NCBI RefSeq assembly: GCF_027460265.1
Contig: NZ_JAPZBC010000001.1
Location: 5,126,001 to 5,190,000, forward strand
DNA: 64,000 nt
Origin: Streptomyces sp. WMMC940
GTDB taxonomy: Bacteria > Actinomycetota > Actinomycetes > Streptomycetales > Streptomycetaceae
Reading direction: 5' to 3'
Shown: in pieces, positions 14,740 to 33,593 of the stretch
Layout: each line of letters starts with the position of its first letter
How positions within the stretch are numbered: position 1 is the stretch's first letter
Position numbers and translations under genes: made by a program
The notes under the pieces: model-generated
What the model saw: the letters and a program-made list of their open reading frames with translations, nothing else
What the model was told of the DNA's origin: nothing
Databases searched by the model: none

Positions 14740-15741
14740 ATGTCACTCATCCCCAAGGCCGAACTGCATCTGCACATCGAGGGCACCCTCGAACCCGAGC
14801 TGGCCTTCGCGCTGGCCGAACGCAACGGCGTCGACCTGCCGTACGCCGGCACCGACGCGCTGCGCAGGGCCTATCTCTTCAGCGACCTGCAGTCCTTCCT
14901 GGACCTGTACTACGGGCTGATGGCCGTCCTGCACACCGCGGACGACTTCACGGAACTCGCCGACGCGTATCTGGCGCGAGCCGCGGCCCAGGGGGTGCGG
15001 CACGCCGAGGTCTTCTTCGACCCGCAGGCCCACACGGAACGCGGCATCCCGATCGGCACGGTCATCGAGGGCCTCGCACACGCGCTGGACCGCGCCGAGG
15101 AGCGGTACGGCGTCTCGACCCGGCTGATCATGTGTTTCCTGCGCGACCGGTCGGCGCAGTCCGCGATGCAGACCCTCGACGCGGCGAAGCCCTATCTGCA
15201 CCACATCACCGGTGTGGGTCTCGACTCGGCCGAAATGGGGCACCCGCCGTCGAAGTTCCGCGAGGTGTACGCGGCGGCCGAGTCCCTCGGCCTGCGGAAG
15301 GTCGCCCACGCCGGGGAGGAGGGGCCGCCCGCGTACGTGCGCGAGGCGCTCGACGTGCTGGGCGTCGAACGGATCGACCACGGCCTGCGGTCCGTGGAGG
15401 ACCCCGAACTGGTCGAGCGGCTGGCCCGCGAGCAGATCCCGCTCACCCTCTGCCCGCTGTCGAACGTCCGCCTGCGCGCCGTCGACACCCTGGAGGACCA
15501 TCCGCTGCGGGCCATGATGGACGCCGGTCTGCTCGTCACCGTGAACTCCGACGACCCCTCCTACTTCGGCGGCTACGTCGGCGACACCTTCCACGCGGTG
15601 CGCGAGGCGCTCGGGCTGACGCAGGAGCAACTGCGGGAGCTGGCACGCAACTCCTTCCGCGCTGCCTTCCTGGACCACGACGAGGCGCGCCGTGAGCGCT
15701 GCCTCGCCGAGGTCGCCGGCTACGACTTCGATCGGGAGTGA
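14740..15741 (+). CDS. Adenosine/adenine deaminase family hydrolase (adenine deaminase type 2 signature)
   Basis: 333-aa zinc amidohydrolase. HLH (His10, His12) binds the metal, with KVAHAGEEG and NSDDP supplying the other ligands and catalytic acid. It is likely to be annotated as adenosine deaminase. However, the motif VGLDSAEMGHPP resembles the SEVGNPP signature of adenine deaminases (yeast Aah1 type) rather than the adenosine-deaminase motif. It therefore more likely converts adenine to hypoxanthine; this is inference from the motif. A strong terminator follows, and then the accessory island begins. Confidence 0.85.
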   Translation: MSLIPKAELHLHIEGTLEPELAFALAERNGVDLPYAGTDALRRAYLFSDLQSFLDLYYGLMAVLHTADDFTELADAYLARAAAQGVRHAEVFFDPQAHTERGIPIGTVIEGLAHALDRAEERYGVSTRLIMCFLRDRSAQSAMQTLDAAKPYLHHITGVGLDSAEMGHPPSKFREVYAAAESLGLRKVAHAGEEGPPAYVREALDVLGVERIDHGLRSVEDPELVERLAREQIPLTLCPLSNVRLRAVDTLEDHPLRAMMDAGLLVTVNSDDPSYFGGYVGDTFHAVREALGLTQEQLRELARNSFRAAFLDHDEARRERCLAEVAGYDFDRE

Positions 15742-16891: not shown

Positions 16892-17209
16892 CTATTCGTC
16901 GCGCTGTCCGTGCCGCGCCGTCGGCACACCGTGCGCCAGGTGCGAGAGCACCAGTACGGCCCGGCCGATGTCGGCCCCCTGCCGCCCGAGCTCCACGGCG
17001 TATCGGGTCAGGACCCAGTTCTCCCGGGCCAGTTCCGAGGCCGGCAGCCCAGACCTCCGCCGCGCCGACTGCTCGTACCGGGCGAGCTCCGCCCGGCGCA
17101 GCAGCATGGAGATGATCTGGCCGTCGAGGTCGTCGAGCAGCATCCGGATCTCCCGTCCGTCGGTGTGCGTCGGGGCGGCCGCCCGCCATCGTGCCACGGG
17201 TGCGGTCAC
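16892..17209 (-). CDS. Chorismate-mutase-fold (CM type II) small protein, end of the PAPA operon
   Basis: 105 aa. The GTG start at 17209 overlaps the preceding ATP-grasp stop as GTGA, which fixes the start. The helix pattern aligns with E. coli chorismate mutase (AroQ). Arg22, Arg39 and Arg62-Glu63 match Arg11, Arg28 and Arg51-Glu52, while Lys39 and Asp48 are replaced by Arg50 and Glu59, and the Gln88 equivalent is not visible. It is distinct from the PapB-like mutase in the same operon. It may be a second aminodeoxychorismate-processing enzyme (mutase or pyruvate-lyase-like) or an inactive partner. The role is inferred only from fold and position. The 188 bp between it and the IS3 relic hold no gene. 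Confidence 0.75.
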   Translation of the reverse strand: MTAPVARWRAAAPTHTDGREIRMLLDDLDGQIISMLLRRAELARYEQSARRRSGLPASELARENWVLTRYAVELGRQGADIGRAVLVLSHLAHGVPTARHGQRDE

Positions 17210-18462
17210 AGCAGGTCCAGGGGATCGGCGCAGACCTTGGTGACGAACGCGAGCCGGCCGATCGCCTCCCGGGCAAGGGCCAGCGCCCGCTCCGCGGTGT
17301 CGGCGTGGGCCCGGGCATGCGCCAGTCGGGAGTCGGAGCTCTGCAGGCCACCCAGCGTGCGCCCTGCCGTCCCCAACAGCTCCAGCTGAACGCCCTCGGC
17401 CTGCGGCCCCTCGGCGCCGGTGATCTCGACGAGCGTGCCGGTCGCGGGCGCGCCCGCGAACCAGATCGCCTCGGCGCGCGGGACACGCGCCGGGTCGGAG
17501 AGCGTCTCCCGTACGTCCGGCAGCACCTTCTCGCCGACGCACTGGCGCAGTTGGTACTCGACCAGGTCCACGCCCGTCGCGTCGGTGACCATGCTCCAGA
17601 TCTCGTCGCCGCCGACCCGCAGGTGGGTCTCGATGATCCGAGGCCCGGCCTCGGTGAGCACAATCTCGGTATGCGTCGGCCCGGACCCCACGCCGAGTGC
17701 GTCCAACGCTACGGTGACGTAGGCCTGGATCTCCACCCGCTGCTCCGGCGCGAGCGGGGCGGGCATGACGTGGCCGAGTTCCACCAGGCTCACGGGGTCG
17801 GAGTACTTGCGGGTGACTGCGACAACCACGTGCTCGCCCAGCTCGGAGAACGCCTCCACGCTGTACTGGTCGCCGGTGAGAAACTGCTCCGCCACGACCT
17901 CGACGGGCTCGTCCGTGCCACGCGCCCGGGCGAAGGCCGCCTCCGCCTCCTGGGCGGTGCCAATCACCGAGACACCCGTGCTGGCCGTGCCCCGGCGGGG
18001 CTTGACGACACACGGGTAGCCGTGGGTCGCAGCGAAGGCGCGCAGCTCTTCCGGAGTCTGCACCTCGGCGGACGGCACGGTCTCCACGCCGGCCGCGGCC
18101 AGCCGCTCGCGCATGGCGTACTTGTCGAAGACCACCCGGACGGTCTCCCGATCGTGAGTGGGCACGCCCAGTGCCCGGCCCACCTCGGCGGCGATCTCCT
18201 GGCACTGGTCGCCGAAGGTTCCGATCCGCGTGACCGGTTCGAGGGCGTGAACAATGCGGGCGAGTTCGATCCAATGCGCGACGGGCGCGTCCACGCCGAC
18301 CGCGAGGATCCGGGCGTGCCCGAGGGGCTCCTCCAGCTTGGCCAGATGTTCAGGTCGGCACAGGACACTGGTGGTGACGGTGTGGCCGAGCGCGTCGCCG
18401 CGGGCGCGCATCCGGCCGGGGATGTCGTATCCGTTGCCAAAAACCAAGACGTGTTCTGTCAT
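17206..18462 (-). CDS. ATP-grasp carboxylate-amine ligase (1)
   Basis: 418 aa. A pre-ATP-grasp domain (residues ~1-110, beginning MTEHVLVFGNGYDI) is followed by the ATP-grasp fold. It contains YPCVVKPRRGTASTGVSVIG (nucleotide-binding strand and loop), VVAEQFLTGDQYSVEAF, and THTEIVLTEAGPRIIETHLR with RVGGDEI (metal-binding Glu and Arg). Such enzymes form an acyl-phosphate and join it to an amine, as in L-amino-acid ligases. The ATG at 18462 has GAGAG upstream and follows the paralogous ligase gene by 38 nt. It likely forms an amide in the island's natural product; acid and amine are unknown. Confidence 0.85.
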   Translation of the reverse strand: MTEHVLVFGNGYDIPGRMRARGDALGHTVTTSVLCRPEHLAKLEEPLGHARILAVGVDAPVAHWIELARIVHALEPVTRIGTFGDQCQEIAAEVGRALGVPTHDRETVRVVFDKYAMRERLAAAGVETVPSAEVQTPEELRAFAATHGYPCVVKPRRGTASTGVSVIGTAQEAEAAFARARGTDEPVEVVAEQFLTGDQYSVEAFSELGEHVVVAVTRKYSDPVSLVELGHVMPAPLAPEQRVEIQAYVTVALDALGVGSGPTHTEIVLTEAGPRIIETHLRVGGDEIWSMVTDATGVDLVEYQLRQCVGEKVLPDVRETLSDPARVPRAEAIWFAGAPATGTLVEITGAEGPQAEGVQLELLGTAGRTLGGLQSSDSRLAHARAHADTAERALALAREAIGRLAFVTKVCADPLDLL

Positions 18463-18500
18463 GGTGACGCTCTCTGTTCGTGGGATGGGCGGACCCGCTG

Positions 18501-19733
18501 TCACGTCGGATCCGTGGTCACGGCGATCTTCCCGGCAAGTCGTTCGGCGAGGACGACGGCGGCCTCGGTGTCGGCGGCGGTGACCAGGATCTGGCCGGTG
18601 CGGTCCCAACTGGCCTCCAACGGGCCGACGGTGTCGCCCACGGACACGGCCACGTCCACCCCGAAGACCCCCTCGTGCGCCCGGACCTCCTCGACGCCCT
18701 GGACACCGGTGACCCGCCCCGGCGCGGCGGTGAGGAAGCGAGTCGCGGCGGCGGCGCGGGGCTCCGGCGGTGCTTCCAGGGCGGGCAGCACGCCCGTGGC
18801 CCAGCCGACCGTGTACGCCTCGATGTCGACGCCGTACGCGGCCTCGACGAGCTCCATGATCCGGTCTCCGCCGGGCCGGGCGTGGGACTCGATCACCCGT
18901 GGCCCGCGAGTGGTCAGTTTCACCTCGGTGTGCGCGGGACCGTGCCGCAGGTCCACCGCGTCCAGGAACTCCGTCACACAGGCGAGGAGGGCCGCCCTCT
19001 CCGGCTCGGCGAGCCGGGCGGGCAACGCGTGCCCGGACTCGACGAAGTTGCCGTGGGTGGCCTTCTCCGTTACCGCGAGCGGCACATGCCGGCCGTCGAA
19101 GCTCAGCGACTCCACACTGAACTCCCGGCCGTCCAGGTACTCCTCCATGAGGAACCGCCCCATGGGGAAGTAGTTCGCGAACTTGTGGTCCGTACAGCCG
19201 CGCAGCCGGACGACGTCCCGCCAGGCGTCGTTGATCTCGTCCGGCCCGCGCACCAGCCGCACGCCCAAGCTGGCCGCCGCGTCGACCGGCTTCACGACGA
19301 ACGGGTACCCGTGCCGCTCCCCGAACTCATCCAGGCTGTCCAGCCCTTCGAGCGGCGTGGCCGCCACGGCCCCCGGCCGTCCGGTGAGATGCGCGCGCAT
19401 CGACTCCTTGTCCCGCATCAGCCGGGCGCAGTGGTGACTGACACCCCGCATTCCGAGCGTCTCAGCGATGAGTCCGACCGGTTCGACGCCGGGTTCGGTG
19501 ATGGTGGCGACACCGTCGAATCCGTACACCTCGTGGGCAGCCGTCACCAGCGGGCGCAGCACGGACCAGTCGGTGTAGTCGACCAGCAGGGCGGCCTCGA
19601 CCAGGGCTGCGTGCTCGGGCCGGTACTCCTCGGGGCGCTGCACGTTGACCACGCGCAGGCCCAGGTCACGGGCCTTGCGCACGGTCTCCACCCGGCCGCC
19701 GATCACCAGCAACGTGCGGCTGTCCGCAGTCAT
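18501..19733 (-). CDS. ATP-grasp carboxylate-amine ligase (2)
   Basis: 410 aa, clearly paralogous to the neighbouring ligase. The N-terminal Rossmann-like domain (RTLLVIGGRVETVRKARDLG) precedes the ATP-grasp fold with YPFVVKPVDAAASLGVRLV, FLMEEYLDGREFSVESLSF and AHTEVKLTTRGPRVIESHAR, then PGGDRI. The E-x-H-x-R arrangement, seen in both copies, is usual for actinobacterial biosynthetic ATP-grasp ligases. Having two in tandem suggests two successive amide bonds or two different acyl substrates. It starts 10 nt after the MFS gene stop, so it is translationally close. No carrier-protein domains are nearby. Confidence 0.85.
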   Translation of the reverse strand: MTADSRTLLVIGGRVETVRKARDLGLRVVNVQRPEEYRPEHAALVEAALLVDYTDWSVLRPLVTAAHEVYGFDGVATITEPGVEPVGLIAETLGMRGVSHHCARLMRDKESMRAHLTGRPGAVAATPLEGLDSLDEFGERHGYPFVVKPVDAAASLGVRLVRGPDEINDAWRDVVRLRGCTDHKFANYFPMGRFLMEEYLDGREFSVESLSFDGRHVPLAVTEKATHGNFVESGHALPARLAEPERAALLACVTEFLDAVDLRHGPAHTEVKLTTRGPRVIESHARPGGDRIMELVEAAYGVDIEAYTVGWATGVLPALEAPPEPRAAAATRFLTAAPGRVTGVQGVEEVRAHEGVFGVDVAVSVGDTVGPLEASWDRTGQILVTAADTEAAVVLAERLAGKIAVTTDPT

Positions 19734-19743
19734 CGGCTCCTCC

Positions 19744-21012
19744 TCAGTCCTTCACCAGTGCGTTGTCGGACATGCCGAGCGACCCGGTCCCGGCCGCGGC
19801 GTTCCTCGCGGCGAGGGCGCGCTCGCCCCAGCGCACCACCGGCACGGTCGCGAGGCCCGCGGCGACGAACAGCGCGCCGAGCAGGATCCAGCCGGGTGCA
19901 CCCCAGTAGACGAGCAGCCCGGTCAGCGCGAGCGGTCCGACGATCTCGGCGATGGTGAGACCGGACCCGAAGAAGGCCTGGTACTGGCCGTGCTTGCCGT
20001 CTGGCGCGAGGCCGAAACTGATCTCCCAGGTGCCGGCCATCTGCACCATCTCGCCCATCGTCTGCACCGCCGCGGCGGCGACCAGCAGCAGTACTGCCGT
20101 CCAGGCGGAACCGCCGCTGCCGGAGAAGGCGAAGACGACGCAGCTCGCGCCGAGCAGCAGGGCGCCGCGCACTACGTACCGTGCGGCGCTCGTAAGGCCG
20201 GTGACGCCGCGTGCCACCCGTACCTGGAAGAACACCACGGCGAGGGTGTTGATGATGAACATCACCGACAGGACCCACGGCGGGGCCTCGGTGTGTCCGA
20301 CGATCCACAGCGGCAGCGCCACGTCGATGAGCGGCACGTGCAGCACGAGAACGAGGTTGAGCAGGCTGATGGCGACGTACGGACGGTCCTTGTAGACCGG
20401 CTGCGGTTTCTCGCCCTTGGCGGGCGCGGGCGATGGCGGAACCGACGGCACGCGCGACAGGACGAGGGCCGCCATCGCGAAGGCGGCCGAGTTCAGCGCG
20501 AAGGCCGCGAGATAGGCCCCGCGTGAGTCGAACAGAAGCACGATGCCGCCGAGGGCGGCGCCCACCGACAGGCCGGCGTTGTAGCTGGCCTGCAGGACGG
20601 CACGAACCTTGGTGAGCTGCTCCTTCGGCACCACTCCCGCGAGCAGGGCCTGCTGGGCGGCGGAGCCGCTGCGCTGGGCGACCGCGTACAGACTCGCCGA
20701 CAGCACGAACAGCGGGAAGGATCGGACGAACAGATACGAGCCGACGGCGAGGGCGGCACAGGCGAAGAAGATGACAGCGCTCCGGCGTACTCCCGTCCGG
20801 TCCGCGAGGTGCCCGAGCGGCACGCCGACCACCAGCGCCACCGTCCAGGCGATGGTCAGCCCCAGGCCGAGCTGGGCCGGGGAGAGTCCGGCGACCGTGG
20901 TGAAGAACAGGGCGGCGGTGACGTAGTACGCGCCGTCGCCGGTCCTGCTGATCAGCTGGGCGACGGCCAGGGTGCGGGGTGGTCCGGGCGGGGGGACAAA
21001 GCTCTTCTTCAT
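19744..21012 (-). CDS. MFS transporter, probable product exporter
   Basis: 422 aa with about 12 hydrophobic segments typical of the major facilitator superfamily. The loop 2-3 motif is present (GHLADRTGVRRSAV), and a cytoplasmic central loop rich in Pro/Lys (SVPPSPAPAKGEKPQ) separates the halves. Its place inside the biosynthetic operon, between the oxoamine synthase and the ligases, points to export of, and self-protection from, the pathway product. The substrate is not deducible. ATG at 21012 lies 69 nt after the preceding stop, the largest gap in the operon. Confidence 0.88.
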   Translation of the reverse strand: MKKSFVPPPGPPRTLAVAQLISRTGDGAYYVTAALFFTTVAGLSPAQLGLGLTIAWTVALVVGVPLGHLADRTGVRRSAVIFFACAALAVGSYLFVRSFPLFVLSASLYAVAQRSGSAAQQALLAGVVPKEQLTKVRAVLQASYNAGLSVGAALGGIVLLFDSRGAYLAAFALNSAAFAMAALVLSRVPSVPPSPAPAKGEKPQPVYKDRPYVAISLLNLVLVLHVPLIDVALPLWIVGHTEAPPWVLSVMFIINTLAVVFFQVRVARGVTGLTSAARYVVRGALLLGASCVVFAFSGSGGSAWTAVLLLVAAAAVQTMGEMVQMAGTWEISFGLAPDGKHGQYQAFFGSGLTIAEIVGPLALTGLLVYWGAPGWILLGALFVAAGLATVPVVRWGERALAARNAAAGTGSLGMSDNALVKD

Positions 21013-21081
21013 GTAGCTCCTCCGGTGGCCCGCCGGGTAGCGGTCGGGCGGTCGTGCGGGTACGAGTGTGTCGTGACGCCC

Positions 21082-22331
21082 CTAAGGGGTGTGCTCGATC
21101 GGGCCGAGCGCTTCCACCGCGGTCTCCAGGTGGGCCACCTCGTGCGTCGCGGAGAGCGCGAAACGGATGAGTCCGGTGCCCTTGGCGACGGTTGGGAAGA
21201 AGGCGGGCAGGACGAGGATCCCGGCGGTCCGCAGCCGGCGCGCGGCCTCGAACGCGGCGGCCTCGGTGCCGAAGTGGGCGCCGCGGATCGGCGAGCGTTG
21301 GCCGGCGCTGACGAGCCGCCCCTCCGTCAGCTTGTCGAAGTGCGCTGCGTTGGCCCACAGCCGCTCCTGGAGCCGCGCCACCTCGCCGTTCAGGTGCAGT
21401 TCGGCGGCGGCGGCATCGGCGGCGAGCAGCGGCAGCATGATCGAGTGCCCGAAGACCAGCGGGTTGGCGAACTTGCGCAGGACCCGTACGTCGTCCTGCG
21501 AGGGCAGGACGACGAAGCCGCCCGCGCCACCGAACGCCTTGGACAGCGAACCGACCAGCATCACGTTGTCGGGCAGTCCGCCCTCGAACGCCTCGTACGC
21601 GTATCCCGCGCCCCGCGCCCCGTCGATGGAGATACCGTGCGCGTCGTCTACGTACAGCAGTCCGCCCGCGCGGCGCAGCGCGTCGGCGAACCGGACCACG
21701 TCGACGAGCCCGCCCATGGAGCCGACGCCGTCGACGAGCGCGATGGGCGTGCGGCCGTCTGCGACCGCCTCGGCCAAGCGCCCAGCGAGGCTGTCCGGGT
21801 CCGACAGGTCGAACCGGCGGACGGGGCCGATCTGCTCCATGACCCCGCGCAGCACCTGCATCGAGGCGTGGGCGGTCTTCTCGACGAGGAAGAGCGGACC
21901 CCGCTCGGCAACGGGATATCCGGGCAGCGCGCCGTTGCCCAGCAGAGGCAGCACGCCGAGGTGGACATTGCTGACGGAGGTGAAGGGGACGACGGGCTGG
22001 CCGCCGTAGATCTCGCCGAGAAGTTCCTCGAGCTGCCCGAGGTACATCGGGCGCATCCGGTTGCGCGAGGACGAGAAGTGCGCGCCGAACCGGAGGAGGG
22101 CGTCCTGCGCCGCCGCGACGAGCGCCGGGTGCTGCTCCAGGCCCAGGTACGAGCAGGAGACGAACTCGACGGCCTCGCTACCGTCCACCAGTTCCACCGA
22201 CTTGCCCTCGCGACCGGTGATGACGTGGCCGGTCAGACCTTCGTCGAAAGCCCGGTCCAGGGAGTCGGTAGTCTTGTCGATACGGGCTGAGACCCAGTTG
22301 GCGTGCTGATCGGCGCGCTGTCCTCGGCTGG

Positions 22332-22335
<4 letters not shown>
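21082..22335 (-). CDS. Alpha-oxoamine synthase (AONS/KBL/ALAS-like PLP enzyme)
   Basis: 417-aa fold-type I PLP enzyme. CSYLGLEQHP (residues 61-70) matches the NNYLGL motif of the family. His156 in KTAHAS would stack on the cofactor, DDAHG (230-234) binds the pyridine nitrogen, and Lys266 in GSLSKAFGG is the Schiff-base lysine. Alpha-oxoamine synthases condense an amino acid with an acyl thioester, losing CO2, to give an alpha-aminoketone. The start overlaps the dehydrogenase stop (ATGA). No biotin, heme or lipid genes are adjacent, so it probably acts on the pathway's amino acid or a simple one such as glycine or alanine. This is inference. Confidence 0.85.
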
Positions 22336-26522
<4,187 letters not shown>

Positions 26523-26540
26523 CTTCGTCGTCCTTTCGGG

Positions 26541-28007
26541 TCAGCCCTGAGCGGCGGCGTGGCTCGCCGCGTAGTAGTCCCGCAGCGCCTTGGCGATGGA
26601 CGGGTGGATACGGGAGGAGGCGAGCAGCTCCGGCGGCGGCGTGAAGGTCGGGTCGAACTCGTTCGCGATCCGGGTGTAGGCCGTGCGCAGGTAGTGCTCG
26701 ATGGTGAACGGCCACTCGACGGGGACGTTCCAGTTCGACTCGTAACCGGTCGCGAGCATGTGGGTGACCGTGGTCTCCACGACCTCCTCGCGGCTGACCG
26801 GCTGGATCGGGGCCCGTACCGGGCGGAACATCCCGAGGTCGATCGTGGGCTCCTCGCCGAGCAGCAGCGCGGTCATCTCCCTGGCAAGCAGCGGGGAGAG
26901 GGTGAGGCCGTCCCGGTAGGTGCCGGTCATCATCCACAGGCCGCCGAGCTCCGTCTCCCCGAGCAGCGGCATGCCGTCGAGGGCGACGGGCCGGTTGCCG
27001 ACCTGAAGGGTGCGCAGCCCGCTCTCGCCGAGGTCGCGGCGGACCTGCCGGTCGGCGCAGTTGAGCAGGAACAGCACGTCGGAGATGAGCGGTGTCTCGC
27101 GCGGCTCGGGCGAGATGATGTTGGTCGCGCCTACGTAGACCTGGCCGTTGCCGCGCGGGACAACGTGCAGGCCGCAGGCGAAGGCCCGGTTGGGCGTCCG
27201 GATGACGCTGGACGGACCGGTGCCGTCCTGGGTGTCGACGAGGGCGGAGACGCCGTAGCCGCTGATCAGGCGCGGGATACGGGCGGCCTGTTCAGGGACC
27301 GTGTCGAGGACGGTCTGGGAGGCGGAGCCAGCGGCCAGCACGAGCTGCTCCGTGACGAGCAGGGTGCCGGACTCCAGCGCAACGCCGGTGACGCTGCCCC
27401 CGTTGTGCTCGACGCGGGTGGCCTGCTCGGGAACGAGCGTGCCGCCGGCGGCGACGAACGCCTTCTCCAGGCGGGTCAGGAGCTCGTGGGCGTTCACCGC
27501 GTGCTCGTTGGGCAGGAACATCGCCTGCAGTGGCCGGCCGGTGGGCTCGGCGTCGAGCCACTCGATGGCCTCGGCGTCGATGTCCTCGAACTTCTCGCCG
27601 TACTCGATGAGGGTGCTGCGGATCGCCTTGTAGTTGTGGGTGTCGATCTCGGGCAGACCGACGGCGTTCAGCATGACGACCGTGCCGTCCGCGGTCAGCA
27701 GGTCGGTGCCGTCGGAGTCGGGCGCCAGTTGGGCCAGCCACTCCGGCCACAGCTTGCTCGCCTGGTAGGCCCAGTCGAGCTTCGTGCGGCCGTAGTCGCT
27801 CTTGAGGAGGGTGGTCGTGACCTCGCCGAACGTGCCGATCATCGCGCCGGCTGCGGAGGACGCGGCCCATGGGCGGTGTGGCTGGCCGAGCACCGCCACG
27901 CGTATTCCGCGCCGAGCCAGCGTGAGGCCGAGTGACAGGCCGAGGGAACCGTTTCCGACTACGACGATGTCGTGGACTCGGTTGTCCTCGAATGTGGTTG
28001 CGGGCAC
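26541..28007 (-). CDS. FAD-dependent amine/amino-acid oxidase (DAO family)
   Basis: 488 aa. The dinucleotide-binding motif VVVGNGSLGLSLGLTLARRG (residues ~15-34) is followed by DAO-family features: PWAASSAAGAMIG, LLTADGTVVM, and the C-terminal FAD region GNRPVALDGMP...MMTGTYRDGLTLSP. These place it near glycine oxidase/ThiO and sarcosine-oxidase-like enzymes. It is about 100 residues longer than ThiO at the C terminus, a helical tail. It is first in the operon; the GTG at 28007 has GGAAGGGA upstream. It may oxidise an amine, an amino acid or the oxoamine product; the substrate is unknown. Confidence 0.82.
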   Translation of the reverse strand: MPATTFEDNRVHDIVVVGNGSLGLSLGLTLARRGIRVAVLGQPHRPWAASSAAGAMIGTFGEVTTTLLKSDYGRTKLDWAYQASKLWPEWLAQLAPDSDGTDLLTADGTVVMLNAVGLPEIDTHNYKAIRSTLIEYGEKFEDIDAEAIEWLDAEPTGRPLQAMFLPNEHAVNAHELLTRLEKAFVAAGGTLVPEQATRVEHNGGSVTGVALESGTLLVTEQLVLAAGSASQTVLDTVPEQAARIPRLISGYGVSALVDTQDGTGPSSVIRTPNRAFACGLHVVPRGNGQVYVGATNIISPEPRETPLISDVLFLLNCADRQVRRDLGESGLRTLQVGNRPVALDGMPLLGETELGGLWMMTGTYRDGLTLSPLLAREMTALLLGEEPTIDLGMFRPVRAPIQPVSREEVVETTVTHMLATGYESNWNVPVEWPFTIEHYLRTAYTRIANEFDPTFTPPPELLASSRIHPSIAKALRDYYAASHAAAQG

Positions 28008-28133
28008 CAGAATGTTTCCCTTCCGGGGGTGAAGTCGTAGGACCGCTGCGATGCGTACAGCGGGGCGTCGGGCCCGCGCTCTGTCACCGTGGCCTGGTCA
28101 GGCAAACACACAGGTGGGGGCCGCCCCAAGGCT

Positions 28134-28149
28134 TTTAGCTGGGTCTAAA
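28134..28149. promoter_or_regulatory. Candidate operator in front of the PAPA operon
   Basis: Inverted repeat TTTAG-CTGGGT-CTAAA, the only AT-rich palindrome in the 162-bp spacer between the regulator stop (28170) and the first biosynthetic gene (28007). An ArsR-type regulator is encoded immediately upstream on the same strand. It is a plausible regulator site, inferred from position. Confidence 0.45.
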
Positions 28150-28169
28150 TCAGCGCCGTGGCGGAAGCG

Positions 28170-29195
28170 TCACGCGGCCCGGCCCAGGGAGTGCTCGGCT
28201 CCGCGGACGAGCTCTTCGCCCGTCTCGGTGAGCGAGTGGATGACCCGGCGGCCGGCCCGGTGGCTCGTGACGAGGCTGCAGCCGCGCAGCACGGCGAGGT
28301 GCTGGCTGATGGCTCCCGGCGTCACGTCGATCTCGGCGGCCAGTTCGCTGGTGGAGGCGGGCACGGCGAGGGCCACGACGACCGCCGCACGGACGCTTCC
28401 GAGGAGGGCGGCGAGGGGGCTGGTGAGGTTCTGACCGTGGTTCTGCCACAGGTCTGCGACGCCGGGCCTCGGATACACGATCATCGACTGGAGCGGCGGC
28501 AGCATGGTCAGCACTTCCGGCCCGCAGAAGATGCTGGGCACCAGGACGATGCCCTGGCCACCGAGTGTCTCGTGGAAGGTGTAGGCGCTACGGACGGTGA
28601 GCTGGTTGTCCTGCCATGCGATGCGCTCGTGCAGAGAGGAGACTACGGACGCCGACCCGGCGGACTCCATCACCCGCATCCGGGCCCGGATGTCGGACTG
28701 GAGACCGCCGTGCATCCTGCGCCAGTGCGGCTCGAGGGCTAGCGTCCAGTAGGTGCGCAGCAGTTCTGTGAGCTGCGCGATGGCCTTCTCCGGCTCGGCC
28801 AGCATTCGCCGGTGCAAGGGCTCCGCCTCCTGGCGCCACGTGGCCGGGGTGCCCTGGTCCCCGGCCATCCAGGCCACTTCGTCGACGAAGTGCTCGGGTG
28901 AGGTGGCACGCACCGCCTCGAGCTCGCCGTCGATGCCGGAGTGTGTGGCGGTGGGCGCCGGGGTGAGGAAGTCCGGGACATATCCGGTGGGGGGTATCAC
29001 GGACCGCAAGGGGCGGAGGTCGACGCCCCTGAGCTTGAGACGGACGTCGTCGACCCACGGCTGGTGCTGTCTTCTGCGCTCGGGCGTGGCCAGCATCCGG
29101 AAGCTGTAGACGGTCTCTCCGAGTGGAGAGACCGAGAAGCGGACTCTCGCGACATCGCGGACGGTCACGCCGTAGCTGATCAACACTGCCCCCAT
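28170..29195 (-). CDS. ArsR-type winged-helix regulator (DUF5937-like N-terminal domain)
   Basis: 341 aa. The N-terminal ~240 residues resemble the DUF5937 domain found on actinobacterial ArsR-like regulators (RVRFSVSPLGETVYSFRML near the start). The C-terminal ~90 residues are a winged helix: LAALLGSVRAAVVVALAVPASTSELAAEIDVTPGAISQHLAVLR then AGRRVIHSLTETG. No metal-site cysteines of classical ArsR proteins are evident. It lies directly upstream of and codirectional with the biosynthetic operon and is the likely pathway-specific regulator. ATG at 29195 is accepted, though the family often starts nearer VTVRDVARVRF (about 29165). Confidence 0.82.
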   Translation of the reverse strand: MGAVLISYGVTVRDVARVRFSVSPLGETVYSFRMLATPERRRQHQPWVDDVRLKLRGVDLRPLRSVIPPTGYVPDFLTPAPTATHSGIDGELEAVRATSPEHFVDEVAWMAGDQGTPATWRQEAEPLHRRMLAEPEKAIAQLTELLRTYWTLALEPHWRRMHGGLQSDIRARMRVMESAGSASVVSSLHERIAWQDNQLTVRSAYTFHETLGGQGIVLVPSIFCGPEVLTMLPPLQSMIVYPRPGVADLWQNHGQNLTSPLAALLGSVRAAVVVALAVPASTSELAAEIDVTPGAISQHLAVLRGCSLVTSHRAGRRVIHSLTETGEELVRGAEHSLGRAA

Positions 29196-32486: not shown

Positions 32487-33593
32487 GTGATCACGACCGA
32501 CGGAGAGCAGCAACACAGTGCGCACGTCGACCCGTTGGGTGCCCTGCGCTCCGGAGGGGACCCGGCGTGCGACGTGTTCCTCACCGGTACGGTCTTCCTC
32601 GACATCGTCTTCACCGGACTGGACACCGCGCCGGTGCGCGGCACCGAGACCTGGGCGCGCGGGATGGGCCAGAGCCCGGGAGGCGTCGCCAACATGGCGA
32701 CGGCGCTGGCGCGGCTCGGCCTGCGCACCTCCCTCGCCGCGGCGTTCGGCGACGACTTCTACGGCGACTACTGCTGGGACGCCCTGGAGCAGGGAGAGGG
32801 CATCGACCTGTCCCTGTCGCGGACCGTGCCCGGCTGGCACTCCCCGGTGACGGTCTCCATGGCGTACGAGGGCGAGCGCACGATGGTCTCCCACGGGCAC
32901 GAGGCCCCGCTGTCCGAGACCGCCCCCGCGGCGGCGCCCCGGGCGCGGGCCGCGGTGGCCTCCCTCGTCCCCGGCCGTGCCGAGCCCTGGATCGCGGAGG
33001 CGGCCGGGCAGGGCGCCCGGATCTTCGCCGACGTCGGCTGGGACGAGACCGGGCGCTGGGACCTGCGCGGCCTGCACGACCTGGGACTGTGCGAGGCGTT
33101 CCTGCCCAACGCCGAGGAGGCGATGCGCTACACGCGCACCGACTGCCCGCGCGCGGCCGCCCGGGTGCTGGCGGAGAAGGTGCCGCTCGCCGTCGTCACG
33201 CTCGGCGCGGACGGCGCGTACGCCGTGGACGGTGCCACGGGCGAGACGGCCGAGGTCCCGGCGATCGGCGTCGAGGCGCTGGACCCCACGGGGGCCGGTG
33301 ACGTCTTCGTGGCGGGCTTCGTCACCGGAACCCTCGCCGGCTGGCCCCTCGCGGACCGTCTCGCCTTCGCCGGACTGACGGCCGCGCTGTCCGTCCAGGA
33401 GTTCGGCGGCTCGCTGTCCGCGCCCGGCTGGTCCGAGGTGGCGGCCTGGTGGCAGTACGTCCAGGGCTGCGAGGACCAGGACCCCGAGGCGCTCGGCCGC
33501 TACGCCTTCCTGGCCCGGCTCCTCCCCGCCCCCGACCGCCCCTGGCCGCTGCGCCGCGCGGTGCCCACGATCGGCTTCCGGCGTCCGGTCTGA
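32487..33593 (+). CDS. PfkB-family carbohydrate kinase
   Basis: 368-aa ribokinase-fold kinase. It shows the N-terminal GG-containing signature ([16 protein letters not shown], residues ~62-77) and the C-terminal signature [13 protein letters not shown], whose Asp in GAGD is the catalytic base. It phosphorylates a sugar or nucleoside; the exact substrate is not predictable. The ~50 C-terminal residues beyond the fold ([19 protein letters not shown]) form an extra helical tail typical of the streptomycete version. The GTG at 32487 has GGGA upstream. Confidence 0.88.

Follow-up and report, generated by a model that had tools for sequence, protein, structure and literature searches.

Gene content and genomic site of the operon

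We analyzed a 64,000-nucleotide stretch of the Streptomyces sp. WMMC940 genome (the window). As an earlier, preliminary description of this DNA had proposed, ten genes on the minus strand, from position 28007 to 16892, form one operon (Table 1). Neighboring genes overlap by 4 bp at five junctions (25650-25653, 25336-25339, 23267-23270, 22332-22335, and 17206-17209), and the remaining intergenic gaps are 18, 69, 10, and 38 bp. The 38 bp gap, between genes 8 and 9, would become a 4 bp overlap if gene 9 started at the GTG at 18504. The ArsR-type regulator gene previously placed before the operon is indeed upstream, 162 bp from gene 1, and its product also contains a DUF5937 domain. Homologues with 67-70% identity occupy the same position at loci L001 and L002, and the regulator likely controls the operon.

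Table 1: Features of the operon and its upstream regulator. Positions are those of the window.
Feature	Position	Strand	Evidence
Regulator, DUF5937 + ArsR-type HTH	28170..29195	-	Pfam DUF5937 53.2 bits, HTH_5 31.2 bits
Gene 1, FAD enzyme, predicted glycine-dependent N-formimidoyl/iminoacetyl synthase (Orf1/Fms14 family)	26541..28007	-	446 bits to PDB 8gri
Gene 2, HemK/PrmC-family methyltransferase (PrmC_N/HemK), predicted small-molecule N-methyltransferase	25650..26522	-	TIGR03534 198.2 bits, just under cutoff 199.1
Gene 3, chorismate-mutase fold, predicted aminodeoxychorismate mutase (PapB)	25336..25653	-	CM_2 63.8 bits; TIGR01803 100.9 bits, cutoff 73.35
Gene 4, fused GATase-ADC synthase (PapA)	23267..25339	-	907 bits to 8hx6
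Gene 5, predicted aminodeoxyprephenate dehydrogenase (PapC)	22332..23270	-	PDH_C 35.2 bits, cutoff 22
Gene 6, PLP alpha-oxoamine synthase (BioF/KBL type)	21082..22335	-	PRK07505 397.4 bits, cutoff 342
Gene 7, predicted MFS exporter	19744..21012	-	MFS_1 87 bits
Gene 8, ATP-grasp L-amino-acid ligase	18501..19733	-	ATP-grasp_4 and LAL_C2 over cutoff; 95.5 bits to 3vot
Gene 9, second ATP-grasp L-amino-acid ligase	17206..18462	-	ATP-grasp_4 and LAL_C2 over cutoff; 69.9 bits to 30vh
Gene 10, second chorismate-mutase-like protein	16892..17209	-	CM_2 22.7 bits, Pfam cutoff 27; NCBIfam 47.6, cutoff 73

The operon is an insertion at a core-genome site: it sits in a 16.7 kb interval, and the equivalent interval measures 0.3-4.8 kb in ten genomes of the same genus. 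No NRPS or PKS domain was found among the Pfam matches of the ten operon proteins, in agreement with the preliminary description, and the operon contains no aminotransferase or acyl-CoA ligase gene.

Genes for p-aminophenylalanine supply

The family matches of genes 3, 4, and 5 make a convincing case that p-aminophenylalanine (PAPA) genes are present, with a predicted 4-amino-4-deoxychorismate (ADC) synthase, ADC mutase, and aminodeoxyprephenate (ADP) dehydrogenase; the papA/B/C set and PAPA supply proposed earlier for this NRPS-free operon are thereby retained. The best evidence for gene 4 is its match to 8hx6, the solved structure of an ADC synthase. Gene 4 also exceeded the TIGR00553 cutoff (370.4 against 328.4 bits) and carries the motifs PIKGT (residue 497) and GVCLG, upholding its assignment as an ADC rather than an anthranilate synthase. 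Gene 5, which overlaps gene 4 through GTGA, matched PDH_N just below the cutoff and the T-protein 2pv7 with 57 bits. For gene 10, the suggested chorismate-mutase (CM) fold was matched by CM_2, but with scores below both the Pfam and the NCBIfam cutoffs, and the protein gave 30 bits to an intracellular CM of the M. tuberculosis type. DAHP synthase genes were found at L003, L013, L016, and L052, which is consistent with a higher supply of chorismate.

Chorismate-derived amino-cyclohexadiene chemistry is also used by the sta clusters, according to the accessible parts of their descriptions (PMC13336041, PMC13111796), and on this ground the operon could be taken for a stravidin/amiclenomycin-type biotin antimetabolite cluster. 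This is extremely unlikely, because the PapC-type dehydrogenase would aromatize the ring. A search for avidin (PF01382) gave no match in the genome, and the control likewise matched 0 of 14 genomes.

Gene 2 belongs to the HemK family, as first described. The strain encodes its own PrmC elsewhere in the genome, and gene 2 is a paralogue of it with 45% identity. In a HemK tree, the cluster sequences fell outside the clade of the strain's own PrmC (bootstrap unsettled) and did not form one clade. PapM of the pristinamycin pathway performs N-methylation on the ring amine.

Gene 1 is a homologue of Orf1

Gene 1 had been described as an FAD oxidase. Its Pfam family is DAO, and on this fold it could simply oxidize glycine or D-amino acids and add no formimidoyl group; a weak match to ThiO (127 bits against a cutoff of 251) and the replacement of Glu312 of Orf1 by Ser point the same way. 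Against PDB chains, however, gene 1 scored 446 bits to Orf1, a rare type of N-formimidoyl/iminoacetyl synthase that depends on glycine, and only 63 bits to the best non-Orf1 chain, the glycine oxidase 4ysh. It shares 213 of 456 aligned residues (47%) with BD-12 Orf1, and the alignment spans residues 12-467 of 488 and includes the C-terminal four-helix extension, which glycine oxidases are described as lacking in the available text of PMC10156733. All eight residues of the glycine site are kept (A54, G55, A56, M57, H284, Y294, R342, and R368), together with T298, F316, E426, and the cysteine of the N-O-S adduct, C281, which is conserved in 53 of 54 aligned relatives. An ordinary oxidase is thus very unlikely, and gene 1 is best regarded as an Orf1 homologue, so that the predicted product would gain a glycine-derived amidine.

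The acceptor site was less conserved. Five of the 11 Orf1 acceptor-site residues are identical in gene 1, five are changed (S310L, E312S, M438T, T466A, and F470I), and one, E313, is Asp. Mutation of E312 to Ala abolished one of the activities of Orf1, as stated in the accessible part of PMC10156733. Since the acceptor-site residues match only in part, gene 1 is not classed by sequence as a BD-12 or fortimicin enzyme; as an Orf1-family homologue it would be expected to use a different acceptor, possibly with the same chemistry. In the FAD-enzyme tree, the branch leading to Orf1 has a length of 1.41. Sequences from loci with PAPA and HemK genes did not form a single clade there (6 changes; as low in 32 of 500 shuffles). 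Among 21 FAD-bearing genomes of the same genus, 16 had neither PAPA genes nor a HemK gene in the stretch examined, suggesting that the FAD enzyme also serves other pathways.

Oxoamine synthase, ligases, and recurrence of the gene set

Gene 6 is assigned by sequence to the BioF/KBL subfamily of fold-type I PLP enzymes: it exceeded the PRK07505 cutoff, which agrees with the oxoamine synthase proposed earlier for C-C bond formation, and gave up to 144 bits to AON synthases in the PDB. It retains the PLP lysine and the DDAH and SLSK motifs, whose residues have a catalytic role. Both ATP-grasp ligases named in the preliminary description were confirmed, and their LAL_C2 domains place them in the L-amino-acid-ligase type; a homologue of gene 9 is absent from L002.

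Streptomyces phaeofaciens carries all ten genes and the regulator, and S. adustus carries the same set without the second ATP-grasp gene. Protein identities to these two sets are 57-86%, indicating that the recurrence is more than chance, and part of the gene set also occurs in other families. The PAPA trio adjoins the oxoamine synthase gene in 13 of 15 loci from at least five actinomycete families, the two non-PAPA loci being L022 and L023. The FAD gene is present in 8 of these 13 loci and missing from L005, L006, L013, L014, and L021; a HemK gene accompanies it in 8/8 cases and also occurs at L021. Conversely, the oxoamine synthase is missing from L052, which has PAPA genes, FAD, HemK, and MFS genes and a single ATP-grasp gene. 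These five loci and L052 indicate that the modules are separable.

Natural fusions were also observed. The matches listed included at least six FAD-HemK proteins of 769-779 aa (a single frame of this kind also occurs at L016 and L017), at least six HemK-CM (mutase) proteins, with a further one at L002, and at least four fusions of a PapC-type dehydrogenase to an oxoamine synthase. The last of these, with the position of the PAPA trio beside the oxoamine synthase gene, suggest that PAPA is the substrate of the oxoamine synthase.

Both observations also bear on the reading that the operon makes a ketomemicin-like pseudopeptide, in which PAPA would be only one of the residues joined by the ATP-grasp ligases and the oxoamine synthase would use another amino acid. 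The ktm clusters, as far as described in the accessible text of PMC11943689, likewise lack an NRPS and pair a PLP-dependent amino acid C-acyltransferase with an ATP-grasp ligase and an enzyme that forms an amidine. In addition to the gene order and the fusions, the ten operon proteins gave no Pfam match to an aldolase, dehydratase, or amidinotransferase, and we regard this reading as quite unlikely.

Proposed pathway and product

What follows is deduced from homology: the product, each chemical step toward it and the sequence of these steps, the acyl donor, and the amine that serves as acceptor. Genes 4, 3, and 5 would convert chorismate to 4-aminophenylpyruvate, from which a host aminotransferase would form PAPA. 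Gene 2 may then N-methylate PAPA or an intermediate further along the pathway, with the ring amine as the most likely site by analogy with PapM, and gene 6 would condense the amino acid with an acyl-CoA of primary metabolism to give an alpha-aminoketone and CO2. Gene 1 is predicted to oxidize glycine at its FAD, to form a cysteine N-O-S adduct, and to transfer an N-formimidoyl (or N-iminoacetyl) group from it to an acceptor amine. Genes 8 and 9 would attach one or two amino acids via acyl phosphates, and gene 7 would export the product. Our confidence that the operon is a non-NRPS biosynthetic gene cluster combining PAPA, N-methylation, alpha-aminoketone, formimidoyl, amino acid coupling, and export functions is evenly balanced. 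The operon probably builds a small nitrogen-rich compound out of an unusual amino acid and does so with no assembly-line enzymes; the earlier suggestion of an aminoketone or short peptide derived from PAPA is plausible.

Formamidines and alpha-aminoketones give imidazoles by textbook chemistry. Gene 1 could accordingly act on the oxoamine synthase product: the formimidoyl group on the alpha-amine would cyclize onto the ketone, releasing water and forming a 4(5)-(4-aminobenzyl)imidazole. C2 and one ring nitrogen would come from glycine, the fused or neighboring HemK enzyme would N-methylate, and the ATP-grasp ligases would decorate the product. L016 and L017 agree with such a route. Both have PAPA genes, an oxoamine synthase, and FAD and HemK fused in frame; nothing there matched the ATP-grasp ligases of the operon, and the flanking genes that were scanned contain neither an AMP-ligase nor an ATP-grasp domain, which makes PAPA-derived amines the likely acceptors. 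Residue 89 of the oxoamine synthase, in a stretch that presumably corresponds to the amino-acid pocket of ALAS (aligned by eye), is Ser in all 8 FAD-bearing PAPA loci and Thr or Ile in all 5 without FAD. Six alignment columns separated the two groups, as many as in 10 of 1287 splits, but this association is weak, being post hoc, without regard to kinship, and confined to the 13-locus subset; no column separated FAD-bearing from FAD-free loci among all 15. Ser at residue 89 occurs in the non-PAPA loci L022 and L023 as well, the acceptor in BD-12 is a glycyl amine, and L052 has the FAD gene without an oxoamine synthase. Because of L052, the idea was dropped as a general one, and for the operon itself we consider it unlikely. 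If true, it would be a new enzymatic route to imidazole, independent of histidine and purine metabolism, and the imidazole could be distinguished by mass from an open amidine (+9 Da, from 27 minus 18, against +27 Da).

According to the available text of PMC10156733, N-formimidoyl/N-O-S chemistry has so far been described for streptothricin- and fortimicin-type antibiotics. If our proposed pathway is true, this chemistry extends into an aromatic, NRPS-free pathway, and the operon defines a widespread actinomycete cluster family built on PAPA and an oxoamine synthase. Relatives without single modules (the oxoamine synthase at L052, FAD at L021, one ATP-grasp gene at L002) would allow enzyme roles to be probed by strain comparison.

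Comparison with known systems

As in the preliminary description, no characterized cluster with this combination was found in the open-access literature. The likeness to pristinamycin and chloramphenicol that it drew holds for PAPA supply but not beyond: PapABC chemistry is published, and its ADC synthase, ADC mutase, and ADP dehydrogenase are matched by genes 4, 3, and 5 of the operon (PMC4863162, accessible part). In contrast to those systems, which have an NRPS, the operon has none, and PAPA is proposed to enter the oxoamine synthase and ATP-grasp ligases. The stravidin sta cluster shares a chorismate-derived amino compound in Streptomyces. Compared by description, it contains genes for branched-chain amino acids and is flanked by streptavidin genes; stravidin, the first candidate, was set aside since the accessible sta descriptions do not fit the operon (PMC13336041, PMC13111796).

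With ketomemicin ktmA-F, the operon shares the PLP C-acyltransferase, the ATP-grasp ligase, the lack of an NRPS, and an amidine group that is only predicted here. The accessible text assigns to ktmA-F its own aldolase, dehydratase, amidinotransferase, and dehydrogenase, whereas the PAPA genes, the HemK-type methyltransferase, and the predicted glycine-oxidizing flavoenzyme are particular to the operon (PMC11943689). The closest counterpart of gene 1 is BD-12 Orf1/N-formimidoyl fortimicin A synthase, which has in common with it the 47% identity, the glycine site, C281, and the C-terminal extension. Unlike the BD-12 and fortimicin systems, as covered in the available text, the operon has no streptothricin or aminoglycoside genes, and the gene 1-type enzyme, in contrast to BD-12 Orf1, often adjoins or is fused to a HemK-type enzyme (PMC10156733).

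Operon and Genomic Site

The genome of Streptomyces sp. WMMC940 comprised 7.67 Mb in three contigs. The ten-gene operon of the preliminary description was borne out, with the genes as stated and five 4-bp overlaps, as was the ArsR-type regulator ahead of it, which carried DUF5937 and ArsR HTH domains. Both flanking genes (Table) were searched in 21 genomes, including our own; the deaminase was present in 12 and the kinase in 15. Ten further same-genus genomes had the two as neighbours on one contig, with a spacing of 335-4839 bp, whereas the interval here was 16748 bp, indicating that the operon is extra DNA inserted at a conserved site. The genes lay on separate contigs in G672, and the flank-gene search found the kinase, not the deaminase, in G303, G307, and G665.

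Features at the operon site and beside related clusters
Feature	Sequence	Position	Remark
Adenosine deaminase gene	window	14740-15741	site marker, before operon
PfkB-type kinase gene	window	32487-33593	site marker, after operon
Second PAPA set	L015	14037-18908	gene 4 homologue 82%, regulator 72%, gene 10 homologue 66% identical
DAHP synthase gene	L003	3638-5167	
DAHP synthase gene	L013	15698-16723	
DAHP synthase gene	L016	14326-15501	
DAHP synthase gene	L052	1418-2449	
AMP-forming enzyme gene	L005	11277-13001	
AMP-forming enzyme gene	L006	11218-12897	
AMP-forming enzyme gene	L013	10766-12463	
Beta-propeller + amidohydrolase	L003	13554-16652	Pfam
Beta-propeller + amidohydrolase	L016	3857-6859	Pfam
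GNAT acetyltransferase	L016	3290-3856	domain
GNAT acetyltransferase	L015	13130-13720	NCBIfam

Predicted PAPA Supply and Related Loci

Gene 4 matched 4-amino-4-deoxychorismate synthase (8hx6) over its whole length with 907 bits, and profile matches assigned genes 3 and 5 to the chorismate mutase and prephenate dehydrogenase families, respectively. Other relatives of gene 4 in the same genome were partial matches elsewhere with only 37-48% identity. According to PMC4863162, papABC gives 4-aminophenylpyruvate, which is aminated by host enzymes. Conversion of chorismate to p-aminophenylalanine (PAPA) by the predicted enzymes of the operon is strongly supported by homology.

Related loci were collected with the oxoamine synthase (gene 6) as query, yielding 15 in all. 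Six came from the contig collection; at E <= 1e-130, hits occurred in 6/296 class genomes and 5/392 genus genomes (nine distinct genomes, own included). Homologues of genes 3, 4, and 5 (the PAPA trio) lay within ~10 kb in 13 of the 15 loci (tblastn E <= 1e-5), the exceptions being L022 and L023. The 13 loci belonged to Streptomyces (own, L001, L002, L015, and L021), Lentzea (L003 and L004), Micromonospora and Actinoplanes (L005 and L006), and one further family (L016 and L017), and included L013 and L014, whose oxoamine synthase was 91% identical to a Mycolicibacterium rhodesiae protein. Eight contained the FAD gene (gene 1), and the same eight plus L021 contained the HemK gene (gene 2). The best matches of L015 to gene 4, the regulator, and gene 10 fell in a second PAPA set; the FAD/HemK/oxoamine cluster next to it is separate and has a more distant gene 4 of its own.

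The FAD gene was detected in 21/392 same-genus genomes (E <= 1e-100). The trio was nearby in three (G000, our own; G112; G378), a gene 4 homologue only in G493, HemK only in G412, and neither in 16. Four of the stretches compared stopped at contig ends. L052, from G378, carried the trio and the FAD, HemK, MFS, and ATP-grasp genes and lacked the oxoamine synthase. Same-family FAD enzymes (46-61% identical) at L053-L056 and L058-L070 were not accompanied by PAPA genes and stood in different contexts, some adjoining NRPS-like genes as judged from sequence starts. Further relatives (P0050, P0117) came from Bacillus cereus group and Paenibacillus records.

Natural fusions were found among the best 120 matches of each protein search: FAD-HemK in at least six proteins of 769-779 aa (P0019, P0022-P0026), HemK-CM in at least six (P0246, P0248, P0249, P0252, P0253, P0256), and PapC-oxoamine synthase in at least four (P0133, P0134, P0147, P0153). 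FAD-HemK was also a single open frame in L016 and in L017, and HemK-CM was fused in L002, from the same species as P0252. Through these fusions, enzymes of the proposed path are connected in pairs.

FAD Enzyme

Among solved structures, the best match of gene 1 was BD-12 Orf1 (446 bits; 8gri, under the deposited name N-formimidoyl fortimicin A synthase), followed by a glycine oxidase at 63 bits; 213 of 456 aligned residues were identical to Orf1. The residues compared were those of the glycine site, the acceptor site, and C281, which forms an N-O-S adduct, as given in PMC10156733. Gene 1 kept 8/8 glycine-site residues and C281, whereas 5/11 acceptor-site residues were identical, E313 was Asp, and S310, E312, M438, T466, and F470 were all changed. 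In an alignment of Orf1 with 53 relatives (54 sequences), H284, Y294, R342, and E426 were conserved in all, C281 and R368 in 53 each, and positions 310, 312, 438, and 466 were variable. We infer that gene 1 would perform Orf1-type glycine chemistry on a different acceptor. Counting against this are the long branch of Orf1 in the FAD tree, the failure of PAPA-linked FAD enzymes to form one clade, and the abolition of one Orf1 activity by E312A (PMC10156733). Position 312 is Ala in the 8gri row itself, and this chain therefore appears to be a mutant.

Kibdelosporangium banguiense encoded two FAD paralogues, P0031 and P0015, whose contigs were equally long; P0031 alone among the 54 had Ser replacing the N-O-S cysteine.

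Proposed Pathway

Chorismate would be converted to PAPA by the trio. Gene 2 would N-methylate, with moderate confidence, as a PrmC paralogue whose homologues elsewhere are fused to mutase or FAD enzyme; we presume a likeness to PapM. Gene 6 would make an alpha-aminoketone with an acyl donor, also with moderate confidence, given its PAPA linkage and fusions. Confidence is good in the predicted formimidoylation chemistry by which gene 1 would modify an acceptor and, for enzyme type, in genes 8 and 9 as putative makers of peptide bonds. Gene 7 would export the product. We infer the step order and product. No acyl-CoA ligase was found among the ten genes; AMP-binding genes were present in L003, L005, L006, L013, and L021.

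Were gene 1 to act on the alpha-amine of the aminoketone, ring closure of the resulting amidine would be expected to give an imidazole. This option is favoured by L016 and L017, where the oxoamine synthase and FAD-HemK fusion were present and the operon's ATP-grasp ligases had no match; the flanking genes scanned there carried neither an AMP-ligase nor an ATP-grasp domain. Residue 89 of the synthase was Ser in 8/8 PAPA loci with the FAD gene and Thr or Ile in 5/5 without it. Six alignment columns separated the two groups, equalled by 10/1287 splits (post hoc, tree ignored), and the FAD label needed three changes on the tree, with 14/500 shuffles as low. The separation broke down once L022 and L023 were included.

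Accessory Genes

The DAHP synthase genes beside PAPA clusters fell into two unrelated classes; their presence there would be expected for extra shikimate flux. In FAD-less clusters, an AMP-forming enzyme gene adjoined the oxoamine synthase. The L005 enzyme scored 364 bits against the model of AvaA6 (3-aminoavenalumate diazotase), under the model's cutoff of 975, hinting at possible diazotisation of the PAPA ring amine; the L006 and L013 copies were identified through sequence likeness and AMP-binding only. A large beta-propeller and amidohydrolase protein followed the HemK gene in L003 and L016 and, by likeness, L004 and L017; it matched imidazolonepropionase and formimidoylglutamate deiminase models weakly and could serve activation or resistance. 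The recurrent GNAT acetyltransferase, found by likeness also in L003, L004, L017, and L021, is a candidate for self-resistance via acetylation of an amine.

Comparison with Known Systems

The enzyme families are known; no description of their combination was found in open-access text, within which the earlier statement that no characterised cluster has it agrees with the literature. The nearest known system in logic is ketomemicin, which brings together a PLP C-acyltransferase, an ATP-grasp ligase, and an amidino group (PMC11943689), and the nearest for gene 1 is BD-12.
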